55,870 bases of DNA from the NCBI GenBank assembly GCA_016781775.1, contig JADDPR010000068.1, positions 1-55,870 on the forward strand, written 5' to 3'. Shown piece by piece: positions 35,083 to 42,605 of this stretch. The translations under genes and the position numbers were made by a program. This DNA comes from Rubrobacter sp. (GTDB lineage Bacteria > Actinomycetota > Rubrobacteria > Rubrobacterales > Rubrobacteraceae). The stretch's first letter is position 1, and every line of letters starts with the position of its first letter. The notes below the pieces were generated by a model. The model ran no database searches, had not been told where the DNA came from, and saw only the letters and a program-made list of their open reading frames with translations.

Positions 35083-35083
35083 G

Positions 35084-35113
35084 CGCGCCGGCCGGGCGTG
35101 CCCGACCGGCGCG
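35084..35113 (+). terminator. GC-rich hairpin after the sigma/anti-sigma module
   Basis: CGCGCCGG ... CCGGCGCG. Confidence 0.45.
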
Positions 35114-35286
35114 GTGCCCGCTGTTGCGTGGCAAATCGGGAGACCCCTATACTGCCCGTGGGTGGGTATGGCGGCCCTGCCGGCGGCAGCCGGAGTGGTG
35201 GTGATAGGGAGAGGTGGCAGGCCCGTACCCCGGGAATAAGGGAACGGACCCGTCTCTTTAGGGTCCCGTAGGGAAAGGACCTCGAT

Positions 35287-36888
35287 TTGGAGAGAGCGTG
35301 GACGTGTAGCCCGAGATTGCTGCTACCCGCGGCGATACTTACGACCCTGCTCCTGATGGCGGGTTGCGGCGGCGGTGGCGGCGGCCAGGGTAGCGGAGGA
35401 GGTGGCGGAGGCGGCGGGGCCGAGGGTAAGAACCTCGTCGTCGGCTACGATCAGGAGCCGGCGATCCTCAACAACTACGTCGTGGGCGGCGACCTCGTGG
35501 CGACCGTCGACACCACCGCCGGCATCCTCCAGGCACCCGTGGAGCCCAACCCCGACCTCGAGTTCTCCCCGGAGTTGGCCGAGGAGGTGCCGAAGGTGGT
35601 GAGCGAGGACCCGCTGGTGATCGAGTACAAGCTCAGGGAGGGCCTGAAGTGGTCCGACGGCAAGCCCCTGACGAGCGCCGACGCGAAGTTCACGTACGAG
35701 CAGATCATGAACCCCGACAACCAGATCATCACGCGCATCGGCTGGGAGAAGGTCGAGAAGTTCGAGACCCCCGACGAGCGGACGGTGAGGCTCAGCTTCT
35801 CCGAACCCTACGCGCCCTGGCGCGACATGCTGGTCGACGAGATCCTGCCGAAGCACGTCTACGAGGGGAAGGACTTCAACAAGGACCTGAACAACGAGGT
35901 CGTGGGGAGCGGGCCTTTCCAGCTCAAGGAGTGGAAGAAGGGCGAGAGCCTGACGTGGGAGCGTAACCCGAACTACTGGGGGAAGAAGCCCGCGCTCGAC
36001 ACCGTGACGTTCCGCTTTATTCCCGATACCAACTCGCTGACGGCGGCGTTGCAGTCCGGCGAGGTTGGCTTCATCACGCCGCCTCCCGATCTCGGCCTGA
36101 TCGAGAAGCTCGAAGGCATAGATGGTGTCAAGGTCGACACGAAGTTCGGCACCGAGTGGGAGCACATCGCCTTCAACACCGAGAAGGTGGACAACCTCAA
36201 GCTGAGGCAGGCCATCGCCTACGGCATCGACCGCAAGCAGATTATCGACGAGATCCTGCCGGGCCAGGCCCGCGAGTTGAACAGCGTCGTGGTCCCCGAG
36301 CAGGAGGAGTACTACACCCCGGCCTGGGAGGGCTACCAGTTCGACCAGGATAGGGCTCGCCAGCTTGTCGAGGAGGCGAAGGCCGAGGGCGCGCAGACCA
36401 CGATCGAGTTCTCCACGACCTCCGGCAACAAGCTGCGCGAGACGCTCCAGCAGATCGTCCAGAAGCAGCTCGGAGAGATCGGCATGACCGTCGAGATCAA
36501 CAACTCCGCCCCCGAGGTCTTCTTCGGCGAGCGCACGCCGGCCGGCGACTTCGAGATGGGCGACTGGGCGTGGTCGGCGAGCCCCGACCCCGAGCTCGCA
36601 ACGCTCTTCAGCGCGAACTCATTCCCGCCGGACGGCCAGAACTACTACCGCTACAAGAACGACGAGGTCACGAGGCTGCTCGAGCAGTCCGAGGAGACGG
36701 TCGACGTCACCGAGAGGGCGGAGCTCGTCAAGCAAGCTTCGCAGATCATGGCCGAAGATCTGCCGCTGATACCGCTCTACCAGCGTCCGAACATCTACGC
36801 CTTCTCCGAGAATCTCAAGGGCCCGCAGAACAACCCGACCGAGGCCGGGCCCTTCTGGAACGTGGAGGAGTGGTCGATAGGACAGTAG
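35287..36888 (+). CDS. Peptide/oligopeptide ABC transporter substrate-binding lipoprotein (family 5), copy 1
   Basis: Lipobox LLMAGCGG, Gly-rich linker, SBP_bac_5 features (LVIEYKLREGLKWSDGKPLTSADAKFTYE; LRQAIAYGIDRKQII). Confidence 0.93.
   Translation: MERAWTCSPRLLLPAAILTTLLLMAGCGGGGGGQGSGGGGGGGGAEGKNLVVGYDQEPAILNNYVVGGDLVATVDTTAGILQAPVEPNPDLEFSPELAEEVPKVVSEDPLVIEYKLREGLKWSDGKPLTSADAKFTYEQIMNPDNQIITRIGWEKVEKFETPDERTVRLSFSEPYAPWRDMLVDEILPKHVYEGKDFNKDLNNEVVGSGPFQLKEWKKGESLTWERNPNYWGKKPALDTVTFRFIPDTNSLTAALQSGEVGFITPPPDLGLIEKLEGIDGVKVDTKFGTEWEHIAFNTEKVDNLKLRQAIAYGIDRKQIIDEILPGQARELNSVVVPEQEEYYTPAWEGYQFDQDRARQLVEEAKAEGAQTTIEFSTTSGNKLRETLQQIVQKQLGEIGMTVEINNSAPEVFFGERTPAGDFEMGDWAWSASPDPELATLFSANSFPPDGQNYYRYKNDEVTRLLEQSEETVDVTERAELVKQASQIMAEDLPLIPLYQRPNIYAFSENLKGPQNNPTEAGPFWNVEEWSIGQ
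35590..35900 (+). repeat. 311-bp perfect direct repeat, copy A
   Basis: Identical by inspection to 37257-37567 (offset 1667), from ccgaaggtggtgagcg to aacaacgaggt. Confidence 0.9.
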
Positions 36889-36901
36889 GCGAGACGATTA
36901 T

Positions 36902-36939
36902 GCGAGGCGGGGGGCGCGTGCCCCCCGCCTCGCGTTCTT
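36902..36939 (+). terminator. Strong hairpin between the two substrate-binding-protein genes
   Basis: GCGAGGCGGGGGGC-gcgt-GCCCCCCGCCTCGC (14-bp perfect stem) followed by gttcttt. Confidence 0.8.
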
Positions 36940-36968
36940 TAGGATACAGCAGAAAGGACGCCCGGTAG

Positions 36969-38555
36969 ATGAAGAGAAAGATGCGTGGTTCACGGCTGAT
37001 CCTGGCGATCGCCGTCGTCCTACTGGCCGCGGCGGGCTGCGGTGGGGGCGGCGGTGGCGGGCAGGGTAGCGGAGGCGGCGGGCAGGGGGGCGGCAACAAC
37101 CTCGTGGTCGGTTACCAGGAGGAGCCGAAGATCCTCAACGGGTACATCGTCGGCGGCGACCTTCTGGCGACCGCGGACATGATCTCGGGGATACTGGAGT
37201 CTCCGCTTCAGATTCAGCCAGACCTCTCCTACGCCCCCGAGCTCACCGACGGGGACCCGAAGGTGGTGAGCGAGGACCCGCTGGTGATCGAGTACAAGCT
37301 CAGGGAGGGCCTGAAGTGGTCCGACGGCAAGCCCCTGACGAGCGCCGACGCGAAGTTCACGTACGAGCAGATCATGAACCCCGACAACCAGATCATCACG
37401 CGCATCGGCTGGGAGAAGGTCGAGAAGTTCGAGACCCCCGACGAGCGGACGGTGAGGCTCAGCTTCTCCGAACCCTACGCGCCCTGGCGCGACATGCTGG
37501 TCGACGAGATCCTGCCGAAGCACGTCTACGAGGGGAAGGACTTCAACAAGGACCTGAACAACGAGGTGATCGGCAGCGGTCCGTTCAAGCTGAGGGAGTG
37601 GAGGAAGGGCGAGAGCTTCGTCGTCGAGAGGAACGAGAACTACTGGGGCGAGAAGGCGCCGCTCGATTCCGTGACGTTCCGCTTCATCCCGGACTCGAAC
37701 TCGCTTATAACCGCGCTCACCTCCGGCGAGGTGGACTTTATCAACCCGCCGCCGGACATAGGTCTCCAGGAGCGCCTCGAAGGGATAGAGGGGGCGAAGG
37801 TCCTGAGCGAGGTCGGGACGCAGTGGGAGCACCTGGCGTTCAACACCGAGAAGGTGAACAACCTCAAGCTCAGGCAGGCCATCGCCTACGGCATCGACCG
37901 CGAGCAGATCGTGAACGAGGTCCTCAAGGGGCAGGTGGAGCCGCTGCAGAGCGTGCTGATGCCCGAGCAGGGCAAGTACTACGCCCCGGCCTGGGAGGAG
38001 TACACCTTCGATCAGGGGAAGGCGAGGCAGCTCGTCGAGGAGGCGAAGGCCGAGGGGGCCGCGACGAAGATCGTCTACACGACGACCACGGGCGATAAGC
38101 TCCGGGAGACCTTGCAGCAGGTCGTGCAGAAGCAGCTGGGGGACATCGGGTTGGAGGTCGAGATCCGCAACGCCTCCGCCGAGACCTTTTATGGCGAGTG
38201 GACGCCCGCCGGAGACTACGAGCTCGGCGAGTGGAACTGGTTCACGAGCCCCGATCCGCAGGTGACGACACTCTTCTCGGCGAACCAGATCCCGCCGAAG
38301 GGCCAGAACTACTACCGCTACGGGAACGAAGAGGTCGCCGAGCTTCTGGAGCGCTCGGACGTCACCGCGAACGAGGAGGAGCGGGCCGAGCTCCTGACGC
38401 GGGCGCAGGAGATTATGGCCGAGGACGTGCCGCTCATTCCCCTCTACCAGGTACCTTACGTCTACGCCCACGACGAGGCGATCTCCGGCCCGGAGGTCAA
38501 CCCGACGCTCGCCGGGGCGTTTTGGAACATCGGGAAGTGGTCGCTCCAGCGCTAG
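36969..38555 (+). CDS. Peptide/oligopeptide ABC transporter substrate-binding lipoprotein (family 5), copy 2
   Basis: Lipobox LLAAAGCGG, Gly-rich linker, same SBP_bac_5 motifs as copy 1. Confidence 0.93.
   Translation: MKRKMRGSRLILAIAVVLLAAAGCGGGGGGGQGSGGGGQGGGNNLVVGYQEEPKILNGYIVGGDLLATADMISGILESPLQIQPDLSYAPELTDGDPKVVSEDPLVIEYKLREGLKWSDGKPLTSADAKFTYEQIMNPDNQIITRIGWEKVEKFETPDERTVRLSFSEPYAPWRDMLVDEILPKHVYEGKDFNKDLNNEVIGSGPFKLREWRKGESFVVERNENYWGEKAPLDSVTFRFIPDSNSLITALTSGEVDFINPPPDIGLQERLEGIEGAKVLSEVGTQWEHLAFNTEKVNNLKLRQAIAYGIDREQIVNEVLKGQVEPLQSVLMPEQGKYYAPAWEEYTFDQGKARQLVEEAKAEGAATKIVYTTTTGDKLRETLQQVVQKQLGDIGLEVEIRNASAETFYGEWTPAGDYELGEWNWFTSPDPQVTTLFSANQIPPKGQNYYRYGNEEVAELLERSDVTANEEERAELLTRAQEIMAEDVPLIPLYQVPYVYAHDEAISGPEVNPTLAGAFWNIGKWSLQR
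37257..37567 (+). repeat. 311-bp perfect direct repeat, copy B
   Basis: See 35590-35900. Confidence 0.9.
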
Positions 38556-38568
38556 CGGTCCAACGATC

Positions 38569-38598
38569 GGGGCCGGGCGCGGAAGAGCGCCCGGCCCC
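38569..38598 (+). terminator. Hairpin between second SBP gene and permease genes
   Basis: GGGGCCGGGCGC-ggaaga-GCGCCCGGCCCC (12-bp perfect stem), no strong U tract. Confidence 0.6.
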
Positions 38599-38682
38599 CC
38601 TGAGGGGATGGCTTGCGGAGAGGAGATGGCTTGGGTTTAATGAGGGCGGGATGCGGGTGAGGCGTCGGGAGGTGGTTGGGGC

Positions 38683-39651
38683 GTGATCTCTTACGTGATA
38701 CGCAAGGTCCTCTTCAGCCTCGTCGTGCTCGTGTTCGCGAGCATCTTTATCTTCGGGCTCGTGAGTCTCGCGGGCGATCCGCTGGTTGAGCTCAAGCAGA
38801 ACCCGCGCATCCGGGCCGAGGACATACAGCGCATAAGCGCCATCTACGGGCTCGACCGCTCCTACCCCGAGCAGTACCTGTTCTGGATCAAGGGCGTGTT
38901 GCAGGGGGACCTCGGGACCAGCTTCAAGCAGAACGCGCCCGTCAACGAGATCATCGGTCAGAGGATCTTCCCGACCGTGCTCCTCATGGGCACCTCCATC
39001 CTCATCACGATGATCTTCGCCATCCCGTTCGGCATCTACTCGGCCATAAGGAAGTACAGTTGGCTCGACAACCTGGGGACGTTCTTCGCCTTCCTCGGGT
39101 TCAGCATGCCGATCTTCTGGCTCGCCCTGATCCTGCAGCTCGTCTTCGGGGTGTACCTGACGGAGTGGGCGGGGACGAGGGTCTTCTACACCTCCGGGAT
39201 CAGCGACACCAACTCGGGCGGTGGTCTCGTGGACCTGATAAAACACCTGACCCTGCCCGCCCTCTCGCTCGCGATCATCCAGAGCGCGGTCTACAGCCGC
39301 TTCCAGCGCAGCGCGATGCTGGACGTGCTCTCCTCGGACTACCTGAGGACCGCGCGGGCCAAGGGGCTCTCGCGCAGGACGGTCTACCTCAAACACGCCC
39401 TGAGGAACGCGCTCATCCCCACCGTGACCCTGCTCGCGCTGTACATGGGCACGATCCTCGGCGGGGCGATCATCACGGAGACCGTGTTCGCGTGGCCGGG
39501 CCTCGGGTTTCTTTTCGCCGACGCCCTCTTCAAGGGGGACTTCAACGTGGCGCGCGGGATCCTGCTGCTCATCGCGGTGCTCGTGGTGTTCTTCAACCTC
39601 GTCGCCGACCTGGTCTACGCCTTTGTGGACCCGAGGATCAGCTACGACTAG
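38683..39651 (+). CDS. Peptide ABC transporter permease (DppB/OppB-like)
   Basis: BPD_transp signature YLRTARAKGLSRRTVYLKHALRNALIPTVT; GTG start. Confidence 0.93.
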   Translation: MISYVIRKVLFSLVVLVFASIFIFGLVSLAGDPLVELKQNPRIRAEDIQRISAIYGLDRSYPEQYLFWIKGVLQGDLGTSFKQNAPVNEIIGQRIFPTVLLMGTSILITMIFAIPFGIYSAIRKYSWLDNLGTFFAFLGFSMPIFWLALILQLVFGVYLTEWAGTRVFYTSGISDTNSGGGLVDLIKHLTLPALSLAIIQSAVYSRFQRSAMLDVLSSDYLRTARAKGLSRRTVYLKHALRNALIPTVTLLALYMGTILGGAIITETVFAWPGLGFLFADALFKGDFNVARGILLLIAVLVVFFNLVADLVYAFVDPRISYD

Positions 39652-39663
39652 CAAGGGGACGTA

Positions 39664-40596
39664 ATGACGGAGAGGGAGATCGCGGCAGGGGGGACGCAGG
39701 CCGGGTTGGAGCCGTCGCCGGCGGCATTGGGCGACGAGCACGGCAAGGTCGAGGGGCGGACGCAGCGCGAGATCATCTGGCGCCGCTTCAAACGCCACAA
39801 GCTCGCCATGGTAGGCGGGGTGGTCCTCCTCCTGCTCTTTCTGGCCGCGCTCGCGGCGCCCGCGCTGGCCCCCTACGAGTACGACGAGATCGACTACACC
39901 GCGATAAACCAGGGGCCAAACGCCAGCCACCCGATGGGCGCCGACAACCTGGGCCGCGACGAGCTTACCCGCGTCCTCTACGGAGGGCGGGTCTCGCTTC
40001 TGGTGGGCTTGAGCGTCGGGGTGTTCTCGACCCTGCTCGGCGCGGTCGTCGGCATCGTCGCCGGCTACTATGGGCGCTTCGTGGACGTGGGGGCGATGGG
40101 CTTTGTGGACTTTATGCTCACCCTACCCTTCCTGCCGGTGCTGCTGGTGTTGGGCAAGATCTACCAGTTCACCGCGATCACGATAGCCGCCGCCGTGGCG
40201 CTGCTGGTGTGGATGCCGATCGCGCGCCTGGTGCGTGGGCAGGTCTTGAGCGTGCGCAACCAGGAGTACGTGCAGGCGGCCCACGCCATCGGGGTCTCGG
40301 GGCCGAGGACGATGCTGCGGCACATCTTCCCGAACGTCGTCGGCGTCATGGTAGTGCAGGCCACGCTCATAACCGGCGAGGCGATCCTGATCGAGAGCGC
40401 CCTCTCCTTCCTGGGCCTCGGCATCCAGCCGCCGACCCCTTCGTGGGGGAACATGCTGGAGGACGCCCGCACCACGATGACGACCCAGTGGTGGCTCACC
40501 TACTTCCCGGGCCTCATGATCGTCGTGACCGTCCTCTGCGTGAACTTCCTCGGCGACGGCCTGCGCGACGCCCTGGACCCGAAGGCCGTGGAGTAG
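39664..40596 (+). CDS. Peptide ABC transporter permease (DppC/OppC-like)
   Basis: HPMGADNLGRDELTRVLYGGRVSLLVG and YVQAAHAIGVSGPRTMLRHIFPNVVG. Confidence 0.94.
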   Translation: MTEREIAAGGTQAGLEPSPAALGDEHGKVEGRTQREIIWRRFKRHKLAMVGGVVLLLLFLAALAAPALAPYEYDEIDYTAINQGPNASHPMGADNLGRDELTRVLYGGRVSLLVGLSVGVFSTLLGAVVGIVAGYYGRFVDVGAMGFVDFMLTLPFLPVLLVLGKIYQFTAITIAAAVALLVWMPIARLVRGQVLSVRNQEYVQAAHAIGVSGPRTMLRHIFPNVVGVMVVQATLITGEAILIESALSFLGLGIQPPTPSWGNMLEDARTTMTTQWWLTYFPGLMIVVTVLCVNFLGDGLRDALDPKAVE

Positions 40597-41486
40597 TGGG
40601 GCCGAACGCGGGTGGCAGGATCGTCGCCACCTTCTCCATCGTCGCCTACGACCCCGAGACGGGCGGGTTCGGGGTCGCCGTGCAGTCGAAATTCCTCGCG
40701 GTCGGGGCGGCGGTCCCCTGGGCGAAGGCGGGGGTGGGGGCGGTCGCGACCCAGGCGCTCGCCAACCTCTCTTACGGACCGAAGGGCCTGGAGCTCATGG
40801 CCGGCGGCAAGAGCGCGAGGGAGACCGTGGAGGCCCTCACCGCCGGGGATGAGGGCAGGGCCGACCGGCAGGTCGGGGTGGTGGACGCCACGGGCGCCGC
40901 CGCGACCTATACGGGGGAGGACTGCTTCGACTGGGCCGGGGGCGTGACCGGCGATCACTACGCCGCCCAGGGGAACATCCTCGTGGGCCGGGAGACCGTG
41001 GAGGCGATGGCGAGAACGTACGAGGAGAGGACCGCCGCGGGGGGGATCTCCTTCGCGAAGCGTTTGATCGTCGCGCTCGACGCGGGGCAGGAGGCCGGCG
41101 GGGACTCGCGGGGCCGGCAGTCCGCGGCCGTGCTCGTCGTCGCGGAGGGGGGCGGCTACGGGGGCGACGAGCGGACCGTGGACCTGCGCGTCGACGACCA
41201 TCCGGACCCCATAAAGGAGCTCATGCGGCTCTACGAGTTGCACGAGCTTTACTTTGGGGAGGCGAAGCCGGAGGACGTGGTCCCGATCGAGGGGGAGGTG
41301 AGGGGAGAGGTCGTGGCCTCCCTCCGGCGCTTCGGCTACCTGGAGGCCGACGACCCGGGGGACGACGCCCTGTTCGGCGCGCTGAGAGCTTGGACGCGCA
41401 CGGAGAACTTCGAAGGGCGGGAGCAGGGGAGAGGCTACCTGGACCGCGCGGTGTTGCGGTTCATGAAGGGCAAGGCGGGGACGTAG
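40596..41486 (+). CDS. DUF1028 family protein (putative Ntn-hydrolase fold)
   Basis: ATFSIVAYDPETGGFGVAVQSKFLAVGAAVPWAKAGVGAVATQALANLSYGPKGLELM, QGNILVG, DSRGRQSAAVLVV. GTG start overlaps the upstream TAG by 1 nt (TAGTG). Confidence 0.88.
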   Translation: MGPNAGGRIVATFSIVAYDPETGGFGVAVQSKFLAVGAAVPWAKAGVGAVATQALANLSYGPKGLELMAGGKSARETVEALTAGDEGRADRQVGVVDATGAAATYTGEDCFDWAGGVTGDHYAAQGNILVGRETVEAMARTYEERTAAGGISFAKRLIVALDAGQEAGGDSRGRQSAAVLVVAEGGGYGGDERTVDLRVDDHPDPIKELMRLYELHELYFGEAKPEDVVPIEGEVRGEVVASLRRFGYLEADDPGDDALFGALRAWTRTENFEGREQGRGYLDRAVLRFMKGKAGT

Positions 41487-41585
41487 GTGGCAGGCGGTCG
41501 TTGTGCCGGAGCCCGTGGCTACTGTAGGCTGCGTGGCGAAGGGGTACGGGAGGCCCGGAATTCGAAAGCGGTGGGTAGTTAGAGT

Positions 41586-42605
41586 ATGGCGATGCTGGAA
41601 GTAAACAACCTCAAGACTCACTTCAAGACCCAGGACGGGGTCGTCAAGGCCGTGGACGGGGTCTCGTTCTCGCTGGAGCCCGGGGAGACCCTGGGGATCG
41701 TCGGGGAGTCGGGGAGCGGCAAGAGCGTGACGGCCCTGAGCCTCATGCAGCTCAACCCCAGCCCCCCCGTCTCGTACCCGGAGGGCGAGATCCTCTTCGA
41801 GGGGCAGGACCTCCTCAAGGCGAGCGAGGGGAGGATGCAGAAGATCCGGGGCAACGACATCGCCATGATCTTCCAGGACCCGATGACGAGTCTGAACCCG
41901 GTCTTCACGGTAGGGGATCAGATTATGGAGGCCATCCGCATCCACCAGCAGGTCTCCAAGGGCGAGGCGAAGAAGCGCGCGATCCAGGTCCTGCGCGACG
42001 TCGGGATCGCCAACCCGGAGAGGCGCGTCGACGAGTACCCGCACCAGTACTCCGGCGGGATGCGCCAGAGGGCCATGATCGCGATGGGCCTCTCGTGCAA
42101 CCCGAAGGTACTCATAGCCGACGAGCCGACGACCGCGCTCGACGTGACGATACAGGCCCAGATTCTGGAGCTCATGGTCGACCTGCAGGAGAAGTACGGG
42201 ACGGCGATCGTGATGATCACGCACGACCTCGGGGTGGTCGCTCAGCTTGCGGACAAGGTTATGGTGATGTACGCCGGTCGCGCCGTCGAGCAGGGGCCGA
42301 CGGACGACGTCTTCTACGACCCGATGATGCCATACACGTGGTCGCTCTTGCGCTCCATACCGCGCCTGGACACGGCGGGGGAGGTGAGGCTCCTACCGAT
42401 CAAGGGGACGCCGCCCAGCTTGATCTTCTTGCCGGAGGGCTGCAACTTCAACCCGCGCTGCCCGTTCGTCAAGGACGAGTGCCTCAGGATAGACCCCGCG
42501 CTCGAAAGGAAGAAGCCGGGCCACTCGGCCGCCTGCATCCTCTCGCCGGAGGAGCTGGAGAACAAAAAGCACCGCGTCGACCAGGAGCTGGGGGTGGAGG
42601 GATGA
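41586..42605 (+). CDS. Peptide ABC transporter ATP-binding protein (DppD/OppD-like)
   Basis: [53 protein letters not shown]-terminal [10 protein letters not shown]. Confidence 0.96.

Follow-up and report, generated by a model that had tools for sequence, protein, structure and literature searches.

In the tuf genes of Salmonella, the conversion data are consistent with a walk averaging ~500 nt to either side (PMC5485169), while conversion falls steeply with sequence divergence, the reviewed cases in Mycobacterium tuberculosis being those of close paralogues (PMC12046097). Both systems resemble a pair of adjacent binding-protein genes that we analyzed in a 55,870-nucleotide stretch of a Rubrobacter sp. 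contig (the window). As in the Salmonella pair, a continuous block of sequence appears to have been copied non-reciprocally between homologous genes on the same chromosome (PMC5485169) and, as in the PE/PPE genes of M. tuberculosis, which include adjacent pairs such as pe_pgrs17/18, a mosaic gene finds an exact match in its paralogue (PMC12046097). The locus can also be likened to that of DppA1-A5 of Pseudomonas aeruginosa, in which several homologous binding proteins share one dipeptide permease (PMC4206461). Our search of the literature retrieved nothing relevant on gene conversion in substrate-binding proteins or in Rubrobacter.

The first of the two genes, SBP_A (35287-36888, forward strand), was taken from the list of open reading frames and encodes 533 amino acids; it begins with a TTG codon preceded just 5' by a ribosome-site-like stretch (GGGAAAGGA), and this start region is kept in the sister genome G002. 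Its paralogue SBP_B (36969-38555, forward strand), from the same list, adjoins it and encodes 528 amino acids. Both products match the SBP_bac_5 profile (PF00496; E 1.1e-87 and 3.3e-85, respectively) with 295 and 286.8 bits, passing the curated cut-off of 32.4 bits. Since the NCBIfam models all fell below their cut-offs (the best of the named oligopeptide and nickel binding proteins, among them Opp4A and NikA, scored 191 bits where 650 were required), neither protein was given a substrate. The two intact genes, adjacent and on the same strand, open an Opp/Dpp-type operon in which two permeases and two ATPases follow. An OppB/DppB-type permease lies downstream in the same gene cluster (38683-39651; BPD_transp_1), followed on the same strand by an OppC/DppC-type permease (39664-40596; BPD_transp_1 and OppC_N), a DUF1028 protein with a putative peptidoglycan-binding-like domain (40590-41486; Pfam) and an OppD-type ATPase (41586-42605; profile match). 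The order of the genes suggests that SBP_A and SBP_B are served by one permease. A GC-rich, near-perfect hairpin occupies positions 36902-36933 between the two binding-protein genes and may separate or attenuate their transcripts.

The segment that sets this pair apart spans 35590-35900 in SBP_A (codons 102-204 plus two bases) and 37257-37567 in SBP_B (codons 97-199 plus two bases), both on the forward strand. At an offset of 1667, the two copies are identical in 311 of 311 bases, and the match extends by 0 bases on either side, the first base outside differing at each end. Beyond these sharp edges the genes share ~55-80% identity per 60-nt window (~72% at the nucleotide level outside the tract), and the longest exact run that they have in common there is 30 nt. 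Within the tract, all 103 codons specify the same residue and none of the 98 comparable synonymous codons differs, versus identity in 274 of 424 residues (~65% protein identity) and 167 of 265 synonymous codons (63%) in the remainder. At the rate observed outside, the chance of such a perfect synonymous match is ~2e-20; likewise, as many as 103 identical codons follow one another, whereas no run exceeded 25 when the same columns were shuffled 20,000 times. The first-pass annotation, which had described a perfect repeat down to every synonymous position, with the genes diverging right beside it, is thus borne out, and synonymous divergence is low within the tract only, not uniformly along the pair.

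The tract sequence occurs just twice in the whole assembly, once in SBP_A and once in SBP_B, which rules out a genome-wide repeat or mobile element as its source. At third codon positions, GC is 0.99 within the tract and 0.92 outside; as the relatives also tend to higher values in this segment, GC-biased conversion is not claimed. Judging by match ranges to OppA-type chains, the tract corresponds to approximately chain positions 68-185 of OppA, which we take to be largely the domain with the least ligand contact, so that a swap of this segment would presumably be readily tolerated.

To place the identity in context, the pair was compared with 16 single-copy relatives of the same family, with one genome per species. 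Among these, protein identity is ~60% in the tract segment versus 61% in the 3' part. The excess of nucleotide identity in the tract over that in the 3' part is +0.279 for SBP_A and SBP_B, whereas the 120 pairs of relatives show a mean of +0.002 (sd 0.041) and a maximum of 0.106. In the relatives, therefore, the segment shows no conservation beyond that of the remaining gene, and constraint or selection does not explain the identity. In the 3' part, SBP_A and SBP_B share a nucleotide identity of 0.72, and their identity to the relatives is 0.66-0.73. Since the divergence outside the tract is roughly that to orthologues in other genera, the two genes appear to be an old pair and do not look like a recent duplication. 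The copying event, by contrast, seems young: the lack of any difference in 98 synonymous codons places a 95% upper bound of ~3% on synonymous-codon divergence, while the flanking genes share 84-87% nucleotide identity with the sister genome (13-16% divergence), which most likely dates the event to after the split from G002.

Taken on sequence evidence, the tract is probably explained by a single, recent intrachromosomal gene conversion between SBP_A and SBP_B. A break or gap would have arisen in one of the two tandem genes, and its repair would have copied ~311 bp non-reciprocally from the other gene, so that the recipient lost its native sequence there while both frames stayed open; the agent would presumably be RecA-type homologous repair, in what was likely one copying event of recent date. 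The observations underlying this reading are the identity itself, its sharp edges and the lack of additional constraint in the relatives, and with the diverged flanks they lend support to the earlier proposal of a recent conversion tract. What speaks against it is that the genes are only ~72% identical outside the tract, with no exact run above 30 nt there. Given the average walk in the tuf genes, 311 bp is an ordinary length for a conversion, and the unusual aspect of the tract is the divergence of the gene pair, not its length. As for the donor, the protein likelihood favors SBP_A by 1.4 units, the nucleotide likelihood favors SBP_B by 11.5 on a tree with poor support, and codon usage carries no information on direction. 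MutS was not found in the genome, although it is present in six of nine congeners, and a full-length match to NucS was likewise not found there. Absent mismatch repair was not adopted as a cause, since the gene neighboring MutS is missing too and an assembly gap is equally likely.

The strongest competitor to gene conversion, though an unlikely one, is an error of assembly, in which the assembler or a gap filler put one segment into both genes, one of which truly carries another, or smoothed small differences within it. The assembly is certainly fragmented (578 contigs, 89.94% complete, with the sampled contigs mostly 1-14 kb long), and an exact repeat of 311 bp exceeds typical short-read k-mers and would form one shared edge in the assembly graph, where small internal variants between identical ends could be merged. 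Wholesale merging is harder to envisage, because the two genes differ just beyond each end of the tract and, from the way graph assemblers behave, diverged versions lacking common end points should not be fused. For a real repeat, moreover, the graph has a single walk in which every edge is used once, and this walk gives the observed order. Both frames are intact, the window holds no N, and no similar repeat was found in the 173 kb sampled (window included), where no further repeat reached 97% identity, a weak result in that the scan did not list the known 311-bp match separately either. A search for contigs sharing the ends of this contig, from which the assembler's k-mer length might be read, found none. 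Overall, the evidence makes an assembly error, the alternative named in the first-pass annotation, less likely.

The history of the locus bears on a further alternative. Among the 18 genomes of the family with a high-scoring copy of this binding-protein gene, only this one carries the tandem pair. In comparison with the sister genome, the Crp, OppD, OppF and S41 protease proteins are 88-96% identical and other neighbors 80-85%, whereas the binding protein, OppB and OppC reach only 60-73% and are no closer than those of other genera. Identity to G002 drops 3' of a bactofilin-like gene and returns to ~87% at the OppD start codon, with the exception of a short stretch around the start of SBP_A that is also conserved. 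The SBP-OppB-OppC(-DUF1028) block, at 35083-41585, thus stands much further from its counterpart in the sister genome than do the genes that flank it. Trees of OppD/OppF place the two genomes as sisters with full support, at a distance of ~0.07, versus ~0.6 in the OppB/OppC trees; because the topology test was not significant (p 0.22), the evidence for an exchange is mainly that of distance. Here the DUF1028 gene lies between OppC and OppD; several relatives carry it 5' of the binding protein, and the sister locus lacks it. These comparisons make it evident that at least one exchange of the block took place at this locus, and such an exchange offers a plausible way in which a second binding-protein gene, of foreign origin, could have come to stand beside the first. 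The binding protein, OppB and OppC of two genomes from different genera, G009 (L033) and G034 (L124), are unusually similar (77-88% identity), possibly another case of block exchange.

With a block exchanged relative to the sister genome and a tandem pair found in this genome only, the tract could also be the scar of a larger rearrangement, either a crossover of an imported with a resident allele or an under-assembled tandem array, extra copies of a 1667-bp unit being expected to collapse to one in a short-read assembly. We regard this as very improbable, because a simple single crossover of diverged alleles would leave a junction, not 311 identical bases flanking the insert on both sides. Strong purifying selection acting on the segment alone since the copies diverged, suggested by the fact that it forms one continuous part of the protein, can be dismissed almost entirely, being contradicted both by the unbroken synonymous identity and by relatives that are no more alike in the segment than elsewhere.

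The two tract copies form a direct repeat. If they recombined, 1667 bp would be lost and a single in-frame hybrid would remain, with the 5' part of SBP_A, the tract and the 3' part of SBP_B, computed to be an open frame of 533 amino acids. One may speculate, with little confidence, that the locus is a recombination hot spot in which modules of binding protein and permease are swapped under conserved ATPases, the 311-bp direct repeat giving the cell a means of deleting or amplifying the 1667-bp unit and so of making in-frame hybrids. Should the conversion be genuine, it would offer a clean example from bacterial paralogues with differences at over a quarter of their bases, a divergence at which conversion is expected to be rare, and would indicate that one portion of a nutrient receptor can be exchanged while the gene stays intact. 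More broadly, this would be a transporter locus in which the receptor and membrane parts are exchanged and the energy-supplying parts kept.

Set against the described systems, the Rubrobacter pair differs from each. For DppA1-A5 of P. aeruginosa, we saw no description of a conversion tract (PMC4206461). The PE/PPE event in M. tuberculosis was shown through unconverted strains and long reads (PMC12046097), whereas the tract in SBP_A and SBP_B is known from the assembled sequence of one genome. Finally, tufA and tufB of Salmonella differ at only 12 positions (PMC5485169), whereas SBP_A and SBP_B, which lie side by side, are ~28% diverged outside the tract. The tract is most likely the product of an ordinary bacterial process, new as an instance and not as a kind.
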